Shown here: positions 7,428 to 46,932 of the stretch, piece by piece
Layout: the number at the start of each line of letters is the position of its first letter
Position numbering within the stretch: position 1 is the stretch's first letter
From: Epilithonimonas zeae
GTDB taxonomy: Bacteria > Bacteroidota > Bacteroidia > Flavobacteriales > Weeksellaceae
Direction: 5' to 3'
DNA length: 64,000 nt
Assembly (NCBI RefSeq): GCF_900141765.1
Contig: NZ_FSRK01000001.1
Coordinates: 2,232,001-2,296,000 of the forward strand
Made by a program: the position numbers and the translations under genes
The notes under the pieces: model-generated
The model's database searches: none
What the model was told of the DNA's origin: nothing
Seen by the model: only the letters and a program-made list of their open reading frames with translations

Positions 7428-7451
7428 TTTATTTTTGTTAGATGTTGGGTT

Positions 7452-7495
7452 TTGGAAGCTGGATGTTAAAAAAACTTCTAACATCCAGCTTCCAA
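7452..7495. repeat. Perfect 17-bp inverted repeat between thrB and thrC
   Basis: TTGGAAGCTGGATGTTA (7452-7468) and TAACATCCAGCTTCCAA (7479-7495) are exact complements with a 10-base loop. The same words (CCAGCTTCCA, CTTCCGGCTTTTT) reappear degenerately at about 45719-45750 after mvaD. It probably belongs to a dispersed palindromic family, and in the thr mRNA it could modulate thrC expression or stability. Confidence 0.7.
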
Positions 7496-7505
7496 CTTTT
7501 GACTT

Positions 7506-8435
7506 TTAAATAACTCTCGCACCTTCGCCATTGATTTTAGTGACGAATGCTTCGCTTTCTATATTTTTCTGATTGAGTAATTCCTTGATTTTTTGTGAAA
7601 TTTCTTCCGCAATTTCCTTCTTTTCACACAACGCAAAAACCGACGGACCGGAACCGGAAATCCCAAAACCAATCGCACCGTTATCCAAAGCCAACTGTTT
7701 CATCTCGTAAAAATACGGGATCAGCATCGCGCGAACCGGTTCTATAATAACATCTTCCATACTTCGACCTACCAAATCCAAATCGTTGTTGCAAAATCCG
7801 GCAACCAAACCGGCAACATTTCCCCACTGCTGAACAGCAGATTTGAGACTGATTCTTTCCTTGATAATTTTCCTGGCTTCACCTGTCGGAACATCTACTT
7901 GCGGATGAACTGAAACCACCGACAAATCTTTTGGATAAGGCAGTTTGAGCGCGTCCAATGGTTCGTAACTCCTGACCAAAACCAAGCCGCCCAAAAGTGC
8001 CGGAGCAACATTATCGGCGTGTGCATTTCCGCAAGCAATTCGTTCTCCTTCCATTGCAAGAGGCAACAATTCTTGTTTGGAAAACGGTTTCCCCATCAAT
8101 TCATTAATTGCAACCAAAGCAGCAACACTGCTCGCTGCACTGGAACCCATTCCGCTGTTGAGTGGCATTTTTTTATATAATTCGATATCAATTCCTTGAT
8201 TAGAATTTATTTTTTCAAGAAATAATCGGATGACGTGTGAAACCACATTTTTGTTTGGGTCTTTCGGAAGTTTCCCGTTATCGCCTTCGATTTTTGTAAT
8301 GACGATTTGATTGGAATCGTTCTTTTTCAAGATAATTTCATCGCCGGGTTCTTGTATCGCAAAACCGAGAACATCGTAACCGCAAACTACATTAGCAACT
8401 GTAGCCGGAGCAAAAACTTTTATAGTATCTCTCAT
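7506..8435 (-). CDS. thrB: Homoserine kinase
   Basis: A 309-residue GHMP-superfamily kinase that phosphorylates homoserine for threonine synthase. The ATP-binding glycine/serine loop PLNSGMGSSAASS (91-103) is clear. The N-terminal VFAPATVANVVCGYDVLG and C-terminal FGISGSGPSVFAL motifs complete the GHMP pattern. It lies 78 bases upstream of thrC and 125 bases downstream of thrA, all on the minus strand, as one operon. Confidence 0.95.
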   Translation of the reverse strand: MRDTIKVFAPATVANVVCGYDVLGFAIQEPGDEIILKKNDSNQIVITKIEGDNGKLPKDPNKNVVSHVIRLFLEKINSNQGIDIELYKKMPLNSGMGSSAASSVAALVAINELMGKPFSKQELLPLAMEGERIACGNAHADNVAPALLGGLVLVRSYEPLDALKLPYPKDLSVVSVHPQVDVPTGEARKIIKERISLKSAVQQWGNVAGLVAGFCNNDLDLVGRSMEDVIIEPVRAMLIPYFYEMKQLALDNGAIGFGISGSGPSVFALCEKKEIAEEISQKIKELLNQKNIESEAFVTKINGEGARVI

Positions 8436-44309: not shown

Positions 44310-45176
44310 TTATTTTGATTCCTCTTTCAATTTCTCCAAATAATCATTTTCCAATTCTTTCAGTTGTTTGAAGTAATTCTCCTTATCCATAAACAATTTT
44401 GGATTGTAAACATCTCCAGATCTACGTTTCTCGTGCAAATCGAACTGGCTTGCGTGCGAAGCGACCCAAACATCAAAATCCAATTTTTTCATCGCATCCA
44501 AAGTATAGGCATAATCTTTTTGCATATTTGGATAAGCTTGAACATCAGAGAATTTGTGGTCAATAATAATGGAAGGCATATTCGCAATTAAAACTTTATA
44601 AGTTCTGTCTTTATCTTTGGTTTCGAAGATAAAACTGCAGGAACCTTTTGTGTGTCCAGGATGATGAAGCAAAGTTAAAGTCGTATTTCCTAATTTGATT
44701 TTGTCATTATTTTTCAAAAGAAAATCTGGGTTCAATGGCTTGAAAGTCACTCCATACTTCCCTAATTCGTAGTCAGATTTTCCGCCGGATTTGAGTTCGG
44801 CTAATTCGGCTTCGTCAACATAAAGTTTGGCGCCAGTTTCTTTTTTGATATCAGCCATTGCGCCCATGTGGTCAAAATGCGCTTGAGTCAAAGTTAGAAT
44901 TTTAATATTTTTATATTTGAATCCTAATTTCTCAATATTCGCTTTGATTTGAGGATCAGAATCTGCCAGACCAGTATTGATAAGGATATTTCCCTTATTT
45001 GTAACAATGAGATATGAGGCCAAATCGTAAGTCCCGACATAATACAAATTCCCGACAATTCTGAACGGCTCATAAGGTTGAGACCATTTTTCAGGATTAT
45101 TTTTTGGTTCTGTTACGGTTTGTGCATTTCCGAAAAAGGAAATGATTAATAGGAATAATATTGTGAGTCTTTTCAT
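44310..45176 (-). CDS. Subclass B3 metallo-beta-lactamase, GOB type
   Basis: A 288-residue periplasmic enzyme with a signal peptide (about 1-18). The zinc-site motif is QAHFDH (98-103), where Gln replaces the first His of HxHxDH. This substitution marks GOB enzymes of Elizabethkingia. His175 (HHPGHTKGS) and His241 (VASHASQFDLH) complete the site. The segments YEPFRI, GNLYYVGTYDLASYLIV, LLHHPGHTKGSCSFIFET and WVASHASQFDLHEKR are as I recall for GOB. It should hydrolyse beta-lactams including carbapenems; activity is inferred from family. Confidence 0.92.
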   Translation of the reverse strand: MKRLTILFLLIISFFGNAQTVTEPKNNPEKWSQPYEPFRIVGNLYYVGTYDLASYLIVTNKGNILINTGLADSDPQIKANIEKLGFKYKNIKILTLTQAHFDHMGAMADIKKETGAKLYVDEAELAELKSGGKSDYELGKYGVTFKPLNPDFLLKNNDKIKLGNTTLTLLHHPGHTKGSCSFIFETKDKDRTYKVLIANMPSIIIDHKFSDVQAYPNMQKDYAYTLDAMKKLDFDVWVASHASQFDLHEKRRSGDVYNPKLFMDKENYFKQLKELENDYLEKLKEESK

Positions 45177-45195: not shown

Positions 45196-45260
45196 CCACA
45201 TTTTTGTCATTCCGGAGGAATCTCAGCGGTCTAGATTCCTCCGGAATGACAAAAATGTGG
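45196..45260. repeat. Perfect 28-bp inverted repeat (hairpin element, copy 1)
   Basis: Arms 45196-45223 and 45233-45260 are exact 28-base complements around a 9-base loop. The arm starts CCACATTTTTGTCATTCCGG and ends AGGAATCT. The right arm is identical to that of copy 2 at 45666-45693. It lies 16 bases past the 3' end of the GIY-YIG gene. Confidence 0.9.
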
Positions 45261-45276
45261 TTAATTAAAATTGTTG

Positions 45277-45585
45277 TTAAAACAAATGATTTAAAAATTC
45301 CAAATTAGGATTCTGAATTCTTATAAATTCTAATTTTTTATTTCTTGATAAATCCTTTATTTCTTTTTCTCGTTCAATAGCGTGTTGAATCCAACCAAAC
45401 TTTTCATAATAAACTAAAAACTCAACATTATATTTTGCTGTAAAGCTATTTGAATTTGTTTTAGTTTTATGTTGATGCAATCTAATATGAAGATTGTTTG
45501 TAACCCCCGTGTAAAGAACTGTTCTTCTTTTATTGGTTAAAATATAAACATAAAACGTGTAAGCTCCTTCTGGAAATTCAATCAT
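45277..45585 (-). CDS. Stand-alone GIY-YIG nuclease-domain protein
   Basis: A 102-residue single-domain protein of the URI/UvrC-type GIY-YIG superfamily. The GIY equivalent is FYVYILTN (11-18) and the YIG equivalent LYTGVTNNL (24-32). Arg35 lies in HIRLHQHK, and the metal-binding Glu is probably Glu71 or Glu73 in AIEREKEIKD. There is no DNA-binding domain. The gene is closely flanked on both sides by copies of the same hairpin repeat, which suggests a link between the nuclease and the repeat. Its cellular role is unknown. Confidence 0.85.
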   Translation of the reverse strand: MIEFPEGAYTFYVYILTNKRRTVLYTGVTNNLHIRLHQHKTKTNSNSFTAKYNVEFLVYYEKFGWIQHAIEREKEIKDLSRNKKLEFIRIQNPNLEFLNHLF

Positions 45586-45622
45586 TTGTTTGTGTTTTTA
45601 TCATAAAATATTTCCAGATTAT

Positions 45623-45693
45623 TGTTATTCCGAAGGAATCTAAACTGTTATATTTTTCTATATTGAGATTCCTCCGGAATGACAAAAATGTGG
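45623..45693. repeat. Hairpin element, copy 2 (imperfect)
   Basis: Left arm 45623-45641 (TGTTATTCCGAAGGAATCT) pairs with a right arm at 45666-45693 whose 28 bases are identical to copy 1. The left arm has two substitutions and lacks the outer CCACATTTT part; the loop is 24 bases. It lies 38 bases before the start of the GIY-YIG gene. Confidence 0.85.
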
Positions 45694-45749: not shown

Positions 45750-46805
45750 TTAAAATCTCATCACATCTTTCACTACTCCACCTTTTTGCGTCAATGGAAT
45801 CAGTTCTGTTTTGATGAAATCTGTGATTCTGTCGTTGTCAATATCATTTGGAAAAAGCAAATGAACATTAGCTCCAGCGTCTAAAGTGAAAAACAAAGAC
45901 AAGCCCGTAATTCTTCTAAAATCCCAAATCTTATTAATGACCTGCAAAGTTCCAGTCTGCATCAGGATAAAAGCAGGTTCGCTCATCATCATCATTGCGT
46001 GAAGTGTCAATGCTTCGTGTTCAGCCAATTTGATGAAACCTTCCATATCACCTGATGAAAGAATCGTTTTCAGTTTGGTAAAATTCTCGTGTGCTTCTTG
46101 GAAACGTCTTTCTGCATAAGGATTGGTGTTCATCAAGCCGTGACCAACCGTTGAAGAAACCGATTTCTGACCTTCGTGAATCAGCAAAACCCAATCGTTG
46201 AAGTTTTTGAAAATCGGATGGATTTCCTCATCCGGATATTGAACAGCGAATAAATCCGAACTTCCTTCCACTTCTTCAGTTTTCCCCCAAACCACCAAAC
46301 CTTCATAAAGACTTCTGCAAGCACTTCCGCTTCCTAATCTTGCCAAAAAGCTTGCTTTTTTTGTTTTAAAATCGGAGTCTGAATTTCCTGAGAAAATATT
46401 ATCTAGGTTCATCAAACATTTAGCAATCGCTCCGAAACCTGAAGCTGAACTTGCAATTCCTGAACTGTGCGGAAACGTATTTTCAGTTTTGATGATGTAT
46501 TTTCCTTTTAGAATCCAAGGTAGATATTGCTCGATATTTTTGAAATATTTTTCGATTTTCTCAGCGAATTTTTTTTCTTCATTTCCTGATAAAAAAGTCT
46601 TCACCGAAAAATCTTCTCCGGCAAAAAACTCCATTGTTGTATTGGTTCTGCAATGGTTCAAAGTATAGCTGACACTTGGATTGGCAGGAATCTGATTTTC
46701 GTACTTCCCCCAATATTTGATGAGTGCAATATTAGAGGGACAGCTTGAGGAGACGAGTTGATTGGATATCTGAAATTGGGAATTTCCCAAAAATTCTTGA
46801 GTCAT
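45750..46805 (-). CDS. mvaD: Diphosphomevalonate decarboxylase
   Basis: A 351-residue GHMP-family enzyme making isopentenyl diphosphate from mevalonate diphosphate. SCPSNIALIKYWGK, PANPSVSYTL, the ATP loop FPHSSGIASSASGFGA, ARLGSGSACRSLYEG and FTLDAGANVHLL are characteristic. ATG 46805 is chosen: a -7 box (46827-46834) lies between it and an upstream in-frame start that would add 24 unconserved residues. It supports the mevalonate route used by Flavobacteriia. Confidence 0.93.
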   Translation of the reverse strand: MTQEFLGNSQFQISNQLVSSSCPSNIALIKYWGKYENQIPANPSVSYTLNHCRTNTTMEFFAGEDFSVKTFLSGNEEKKFAEKIEKYFKNIEQYLPWILKGKYIIKTENTFPHSSGIASSASGFGAIAKCLMNLDNIFSGNSDSDFKTKKASFLARLGSGSACRSLYEGLVVWGKTEEVEGSSDLFAVQYPDEEIHPIFKNFNDWVLLIHEGQKSVSSTVGHGLMNTNPYAERRFQEAHENFTKLKTILSSGDMEGFIKLAEHEALTLHAMMMMSEPAFILMQTGTLQVINKIWDFRRITGLSLFFTLDAGANVHLLFPNDIDNDRITDFIKTELIPLTQKGGVVKDVMRF

Positions 46806-46826
46806 AGGTTTGGCTTTTGGCTTTGG

Positions 46827-46834
46827 CAAATTTA
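46827..46834 (-). promoter_or_regulatory. -7 box of mvaD
   Basis: Minus-strand TAAATTTG matches TAnnTTTG, 21 bases before the chosen ATG. Confidence 0.6.
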
Positions 46835-46863
46835 AAATAAAATAGTTGTTTATGGGAATTTTG

Positions 46864-46932
46864 AACGCAAAGTCCACAAAGATTTTTTGAACTTATTGCA
46901 AACATTTTTAAGGCTCGCAAAGACGCTGACGC
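46864..46932. repeat. Partial copy of the CACAAAGTCC-type repeat
   Basis: CGCAAAGTCCACAAAGATTT and, further on, AAGGCTCGCAAAGACGC resemble the element at 140-270 but the inverted partner is missing. It fills part of the gap 46835-47160; the rest is the element at 47048-47110 and A/T-rich sequence. Confidence 0.5.

Follow-up and report, generated by a model that had tools for sequence, protein, structure and literature searches.

The window, a 64,000-nt stretch of Epilithonimonas zeae DNA, carries a small GIY-YIG nuclease gene between two hairpins, each a head-to-head pair of short palindromic units (REPs). The features of the locus are as follows.

44310..45176, minus strand: conserved neighbour and site marker in relatives, which we take to be a metallo-beta-lactamase-like hydrolase gene (open reading frame; comparison with relatives)
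45196..45260, no strand: hairpin 1, located 3' of the nuclease gene, a head-to-head REP pair with perfect 28-nt arms (repeat search, folding)
45205..45223, plus strand: REP unit TGTCATTCCGGAGGAATCT, with tag TGTC and stem ATTCC/GGAAT (sequence)
45233..45251, minus strand: REP unit TGTCATTCCGGAGGAATCT (sequence)
45277..45585, minus strand: single-domain GIY-YIG nuclease gene, 102 aa (open reading frame; PF01541; AlphaFold2)
45614..45693, no strand: hairpin 2, located 5' of the nuclease gene, a head-to-head REP pair with one imperfect arm (repeat search, folding)
45623..45641, plus strand: degenerate REP unit TGTTATTCCGAAGGAATCT (sequence)
45666..45684, minus strand: REP unit TGTCATTCCGGAGGAATCT (sequence)
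45750..46877, minus strand: conserved neighbour and site marker in relatives, presumably a diphosphomevalonate decarboxylase-like (mvaD-like) gene (open reading frame; comparison with relatives)

Hairpin 1 is a perfect 28-nt inverted repeat (arms 45196-45223 and 45233-45260) with a 9-nt loop, and 16 bases separate it from the stop end of the gene at 45277. The right arm of hairpin 2 (45666-45693), across the gene, is identical to the right arm of hairpin 1, and its left arm is imperfect (a 32-nt match at 84%). Both hairpins are thus as the initial annotation described them. The 19-nt REP unit TGTCATTCCGGAGGAATCT consists of an unpaired TGTC tag and a small palindrome, ATTCC-GGA-GGAAT; one of the four units in the window is degenerate. 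When folded as DNA, the two hairpins give -32.3 kcal/mol (z -12.9) and -16.1 kcal/mol (z -5.9). The arm core GATTCCTCCGGAATGAC, allowing up to three mismatches, is found four times in the window versus 0.10 expected from shuffles, and at 80 places in the 4.08-Mb source genome (41 on the plus and 39 on the minus strand). The reversed pattern, used as a control at the same number of mismatches, is found at none. Read from the list of places, 24 head-to-head pairs account for 48 of the 80. If 80 arms were placed at random, the probability that a given gene would have one at no more than 120 bp on each side is about 5.5e-6. The hairpin repeats around the nuclease gene are beyond chance, and in the source genome the gene does lie between inverted REPs of a dispersed family. 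An Rfam identity for the hairpin was considered and rejected: all 16 matches (E up to 1) are below the gathering scores and mostly involve microRNA models, which we read as an effect of a long perfect hairpin.

The 102-aa protein matches PF01541 (GIY-YIG) with an E-value of 1.6e-14 and has no other domain in Pfam; NCBIfam has no family for it. The AlphaFold2 model has a pLDDT of 92.2, a confident GIY-YIG fold. A profile-based fold search, whose profile was built from six proteobacterial relatives, places UPF0213 (1zg2) nearest among PDB entries, as the sole match with E < 0.001; Slx1 and Slx1-Slx4 follow (E about 0.01 to 0.05), and the N-domain of UvrC is also matched. Y14, Y25, G27, R35, E73, and N92 are invariant in 25 aligned sequences. 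The protein therefore has the GIY-YIG domain with the conserved Tyr, Tyr, Arg, Glu, and Asn by which small GIY-YIG nucleases are recognised, residues that are presumably catalytic. Judged by sequence, it is a UPF0213/COG2827-like small GIY-YIG predicted nuclease, sharing fold and conserved residues with other such proteins (1zg2, 1ywl) and with Slx1. Slx1 is a nuclease of branched DNA, and because of the Slx1-like modelled fold it is plausible that the window nuclease cuts hairpins or cruciforms. The closest named proteins are from Epilithonimonas and Chryseobacterium. A whole-genome profile search finds only one other PF01541 match in the source genome, within a 603-aa frame that is, by its size, probably UvrC.

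Relatives of the nuclease are found across bacteria. A scan with one genome per species found at least 583, and the best 80 loci were analyzed; this set is rich in Alphaproteobacteria because the search was led by an Azospirillum protein. Among these best 80 of at least 583, REPs are found within 300 bp of the nuclease gene on both sides in 30 loci, on one side in 21, and on neither in 29 (30, 18, and 32 with a stricter tag). The corresponding numbers for 433 other ORFs in the same loci are 6, 43, and 384 (Fisher p 2.9e-21 for both sides), and only two of 103 short ORFs (<150 aa) have REPs on both sides. REP density is 2.66/kb near the nuclease versus 0.21/kb beyond 1 kb, while three wrong tags give 0.04-0.11 near and 0.05-0.09 far, with ratios near 1. 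A motif-free test agrees: in 29 of 75 loci the two flanks of the gene share inverted matches of at least 16 nt, versus 1.2% for flanks of different loci, and in 20 of 75 they share direct matches.

The flanking REPs also have a regular arrangement. This arrangement, like the comparison with other ORFs and the densities above, was read from 79 of the 80 loci (L208 has no open frame); some genes are in wrong frames, which puts borders slightly off here and in the counts above. Left and right REPs are of the same type in 25 of 30 loci, compared with 30% between loci. In 23 of 38 cases the nearest upstream REP is no more than 23 bp from the start, and in 25 of 38 it has plus orientation; downstream, the nearest REP is no more than 13 bp from the stop in 23 of 43 cases and has minus orientation in 31 of 43. 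Many REPs are thus directly next to the gene and point towards one another across it, so that the gene stands where the loop of a REP pair would be.

With the stricter tag, loci not labelled Alphaproteobacteria have REPs on both sides in 20 cases, on one side in nine, and on neither in four (REP in 29 of 33). The 47 alphaproteobacterial loci divide into 10, 9, and 28, and account for 28 of the 32 REP-less loci. Taxon labels were taken from record titles, and since many records are MAG contigs, placement may be wrong. So labelled, the REP loci outside Alphaproteobacteria include Beta-, Gamma-, and Deltaproteobacteria, Patescibacteria, Chloroflexi, Planctomycetes, Ignavibacteria, Omnitrophus, and others; Nitrospirae have a REP on one side only. 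Far from the gene (>1 kb), REP density is 0.218/kb in loci without a near REP and 0.200/kb in those with one, and only 20 of 84 far REPs share their stem start with the near REP (0.069 for REPs of other loci). On the nuclease tree, the REP label is clustered but patchy, with 38 changes versus 66.6 when shuffled. The tree is slightly off because some loci are in wrong frames (long branches L230, L197, L236, L186, and L250; the L098 row is a nonsense translation), and it leaves out L037, L055, L057, L062, L167, L169, L191, L104, and rows outside 75-160 aa.

In Bacteroidota, 60 loci were sampled, one per genome and away from contig ends where discernible. They come from the top of the matches listed (at least 198 genomes) and are therefore biased to the best Pfam scores. 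A tag-and-stem finder detects REPs on both sides in 10, on one side in eight, and on neither in 42, with densities of 1.55/kb near versus 0.083/kb far. A hairpin-finder alone, for which the stems of many REPs are too short, gives two genes with hairpins on both sides and eight on one. Among the 29 Bacteroidota loci nearest to the window protein, eight have REPs on both sides and 12 on one. Over four locus sets, wrong tags give near-to-far ratios from 0 to 2.6, except for one of 7.1 (4 near, 2 far; a 29-locus set); apart from this case, the enrichment near the gene is specific to the tag.

In a plasmid collection with 34 matching records, 12 were examined; a REP lies beside the GIY-YIG gene in six, and one more has a single weak match. 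These REP-flanked genes are from Azospirillum lipoferum, Neisseria gonorrhoeae, Rhizobium CIAT894, Aeromonas, Spirosoma, and Sinorhizobium meliloti, the last with a CCTC tag. According to a 2013 paper, the CGTC REPs of N. gonorrhoeae are dRS3 (PMC3733652). In several bacterial groups, then, the gene is bracketed by REPs far beyond chance. The initial annotation had linked the gene to hairpins in Flavobacteriia; the association stands, and its range is wider. Hairpins also flank further nuclease genes of this type, but not all of them. On a plasmid of Planktothrix agardhii (L102), the GIY-YIG gene lies between an MmeI-type enzyme and DISARM drmA, with no REPs detected.

The number of REPs goes with the gene as well. 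One REP type (ATTCC) was counted in 296 Bacteroidota genomes, which are not independent of one another: the 173 with a nuclease relative have a median of 4 copies (at least 10 in 53), and the 123 nuclease-free genomes have a median of 0 (at least 10 in six; p 1e-16). Shuffling the labels inside each of 17 mixed families gives an equally strong difference in 14 of 5000 permutations. There are exceptions: in two families (f1 and f10) REPs are more numerous in the genome that has no nuclease, and the six REP-rich nuclease-free genomes have 24 (G299), 20 (G155), 18 (G271), 18 (G259), 16 (G101), and 11 (G224) copies. The maximum of the 296 is 346, in G182. In the genus, genomes with a close relative of the window gene have a mean of 52.4 own-type arms versus 27.3 without (one-sided p 0.04), and for a wider set the means are 49.5 and 23.9 (p 0.004). 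Two genomes (G008 and G021) have 68 and 32 arms with only a UvrC-size GIY-YIG match and no small one. Nuclease and REP copy number go together in both Bacteroidota and the genus, a relation on which the initial annotation had let its reading depend.

Comparison of sequences suggests, furthermore, that REP type is matched to nuclease type. For 49 REP-flanked Bacteroidota nucleases (70-170 aa; loci without an open frame fell out), REP likeness is correlated with protein likeness (Mantel rho 0.266, 0 of 2000 permutations). Below a relative score of 0.6 the correlation is weak (rho 0.149, 53 of 2000). A comparison within genomes is evenly split: in 11 cases the REP of the closest foreign nuclease is the more similar one, and in another 11 it is the less similar. 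In G018 all seven places of the variant flanking the nuclease are in the array beside it, and in G176 14 of 19 places of the flanking variant are at the nuclease locus. Because of the weak correlation at low likeness, the even split, and these two genomes, the matching is suggested but not settled.

Close relatives of the window gene are found in five of 23 genus genomes, with 81-100% identity (the G013 copy is broken and matched in part). All five loci (L033-L037) have TGTC REPs on both sides, although the hairpin search alone shows only one strong hairpin in L033 and L035. In G018 (L036), the gene is elsewhere in the genome, within an array of the variant REP: six tandem units of about 145 bp lie on one side of it and a seventh on the opposite side. 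Every unit contains a hairpin whose REP variant is absent elsewhere in that genome at one mismatch. Counting all 29 GIY-YIG loci of the genus, seven have REPs on both sides and seven on one, and distant paralogs have other REPs or none. Next to several paralogs (L047, L049, L050, L061, and L044-L046) there are hairpins or REPs of other kinds, whose cores (e.g., CTGAGCGGAGTCGAAG or GGCTGAGCCTGTCGAAGCC) likewise adjoin a TGTCA tag.

The two neighbours of the window gene (hydrolase and mvaD-like) are together in 14 of 22 genus loci, where the site between them can be compared. It is bare in G004, G019, and G021, and has one hairpin and no gene in G003, G007, G010, and G014. The arrangement hairpin-gene-hairpin is found in G000, G016, and G017, and in G013 the gene between the hairpins is frameshifted. 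The two hairpins of G018 are separated by sequence that resembles the DNA immediately 3' of the gene. In G008 (L287) and G022 (L279), the site has about 575 bp of unrelated sequence, which looks like one ORF. This pattern fits either gain of the gene into a hairpin or recombination between hairpins that removed it. A comparison of G000 with G016 shows higher similarity for the gene than for the neighbour (identical third positions 80.4% of 102 vs 62.6% of 345, p 0.0008), which suggests transfer. It is also closer between G016 and G017 (third positions 73.5% vs 62.8%), hardly closer between G000 and G017 (76.5% vs 73.4%), and not closer between G016 and G013 (90.8% vs 91.9% of all positions).

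In Azospirillum lipoferum, a gene with a REP pair on either side lies between sufB and sufC. The same site in A. ramasamyi, A. oryzae, and strain B510 has no gene and no REP; therefore, the whole REP-gene-REP unit came or went together. Sinorhizobium K101 and M103 have the gene with fewer upstream REP pairs than S. meliloti Ak57. Gene and REPs are thus present or absent at the same site in relatives, and sites without the unit, which the initial annotation had proposed looking for, are found in both Azospirillum and the genus of the window. No target-site duplication is visible by eye at the compared sites, whose flanks are too diverged for certainty. Two differing sites were found when hairpin sites of the source genome were compared with 800 kb of G007, again with flanks too diverged for a clean junction. 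Opposite window positions 7430-7507, about 280 bp are inserted in G007 (C5, about 1280408-1280769), including a TGTC hairpin that the source genome does not have.

The association of the nuclease gene with REPs is almost certainly real, and the nuclease probably acts on them. The small GIY-YIG protein would be the dedicated endonuclease of TGTC/CGTC-tagged REPs. It may recognise a folded REP with its tag, as a single-stranded hairpin or a cruciform, and cut at or near it, as relatives with the Slx1/UvrC fold cut branched or damaged DNA; the host's break repair would then copy the REP pair, with or without the gene, to a new place. We lean, by a little, towards the nuclease spreading REPs as their autonomous partner. 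REP-nuclease-REP would be the autonomous element, and dispersed head-to-head pairs its non-autonomous relatives, as REPINs are to RAYTs. It is an even question whether small GIY-YIG nucleases and TGTC/CGTC REPs make up one ancient, bacteria-wide class of mobile elements without a known transposase, in which each clade has its own REP type. Several observations stand against this explanation: many relatives of the nuclease have no REPs, some nuclease-free genomes keep hairpins, flanking and dispersed REPs can differ, far REPs are as dense in loci without a near REP as in those with one, the REP label is patchy on the tree, and no target-site duplication is visible. The interpretation of the initial annotation, in which the protein may act on or spread the hairpin, is partly supported, and neither of the two outcomes that it named as refuting was obtained.

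GIY-YIG enzymes are known as homing endonucleases, and the gene may alternatively, as the main rival reading, be a homing parasite: the nuclease would cut pre-existing REP pairs, and the gene would be copied in during repair, with the REPs themselves spread by other means. We consider this possible but rather unlikely. The genus sites with a single hairpin and no gene are what such a parasite would use, in a common geometry the gene occupies the loop of a head-to-head pair, and G000 and G016 are more alike in the gene than in its neighbour. If the nuclease depended on REPs as landing sites, the two would likewise be found together, so that co-occurrence fits both readings. However, the three Azospirillum relatives have no REP at the sufB-sufC site, where the unit came or went whole, and the genus pattern also fits gene loss by recombination between hairpins; G018 has, between its two hairpins, the stretch that resembles DNA 3' of the gene. 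The window gene resembles freestanding GIY-YIG homing endonucleases in its patchy presence at one site and in being closer than its neighbour in one pair; it differs in being bracketed by dispersed repeats that outnumber it and in the Azospirillum site that shows no REP when the unit is absent.

It is improbable that the protein is an immobile repair enzyme or resolvase (UvrC/Slx1-like) with the task of trimming cruciforms formed by REPs, or one whose gene is under the control of the REPs at its ends. The fold, with its matches to UPF0213, Slx1, and the UvrC N-domain, would suit this role. Caulobacter has three small COG2827 genes, one with an SOS box, for which a repair role is left open in the report (PMC1839093). 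The gene is, however, patchy at one genus site and is found inside an operon that relatives have without it; moreover, a genome may have up to 25 GIY-YIG matches among the matches listed, and the paralogs of one genome are beside different REP types. The genome with 25 is G075, and G154, G170, and G210 also have many. In G154, tandem matches with equal scores are found at C1:1733881, 1734198, and 1734515.

That small orphan genes and REPs merely gather in the same permissive intergenic places, as the intergenic position of REPs (Di Nocera et al., PMC3733652) and the inclusion of operon genes with short gaps among the control ORFs might allow, is very improbable and already disfavoured by the short ORFs of the same loci (both sides in 2 of 103), by REPs that often abut the gene within about 20 bp with matching left and right types, and by the REP copy number that goes with the gene.

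It is reported that REPs are of two kinds, GTAG REPs, which are partnered by RAYTs, and CGTC REPs (Di Nocera et al. 2013, PMC3733652). The latter, in five phyla including Bacteroidetes, often have the tag TGTC, have stems nearly always starting with AT, and are mostly head-to-head dimers; Neisseria dRS3 and Rickettsia RPE-4 and RPE-6 are among them. Four families are described there, with stems of 8-9 bp, loops of 4-5 nt, and the tail CCA. The same paper states that CGTC REPs "apparently lack a dedicated transposase" and raises the question of how they are mobilised. The REP of the window has in common with them the unpaired tag (TGTC), the AT start of the stem, dispersal (80 places), and head-to-head dimers (24 pairs), but its stem is of 5 bp (ATTCC/GGAAT), its loop of 3 nt, and its end CT. 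It is therefore a relative outside the four families. Many REPs flanking the 80 loci fit closely and approach the stem, loop, and tail form of CGTC REPs, e.g., CGTCATTCCCGCGAAAGCGGGAATCC. Whereas CGTC REPs are given without a transposase partner in the relevant passages of the 2013 paper, the window REP has a nuclease beside it. Among the titles and abstract openings listed from the open-licence PMC literature (preprints and most subscription journals are outside it), none links GIY-YIG genes with CGTC REPs, and none mentions a REP association of UPF0213, COG2827, or Slx1 proteins, unlike the REP-flanked nuclease of the window.

The likeness to RAYTs and REPINs proposed in the initial annotation applies to the anatomy. 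As with RAYTs (TnpA-REP), GTAG REPs, and REPINs, there are short palindromes in tens of dispersed copies, many of them in head-to-head pairs that are probably non-autonomous elements, and one gene bracketed by the repeats. It does not extend to the enzyme or the tag. RAYTs have an HUH motif with a catalytic tyrosine, whereas the window protein has only PF01541 and a GIY-YIG fold, and the REP tag is TGTC/CGTC instead of GTAG. If the preferred reading, in which the nuclease spreads REPs, is true, REP-like populations arose with two unrelated enzymes. The nuclease would then be the enzyme that is reported to be missing for CGTC REPs, including dRS3 and the RPE repeats, and a role would be found for many small GIY-YIG proteins whose present annotation is UvrC-like or unknown. 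Hairpin repeats of this kind are widespread, and a linked, co-occurring nuclease turns the question of their mobilisation into a simple assay.

At both of the dispersed REP sites of Azospirillum that were compared, no REP pair is visible in relatives, and there is no clear duplication. On three plasmids of A. lipoferum (L393 on p1, L394 on p6, and L399 on p5), dispersed REP pairs occupy the centre of a repeat element of about 200 bp, whose ends on p1 and p5 look like inverted repeats (ATAGGCGCTAAC / GTTAGCGCCTAT). Such sequences suggest that REP pairs may insert into other palindromes or may be carried by a MITE.
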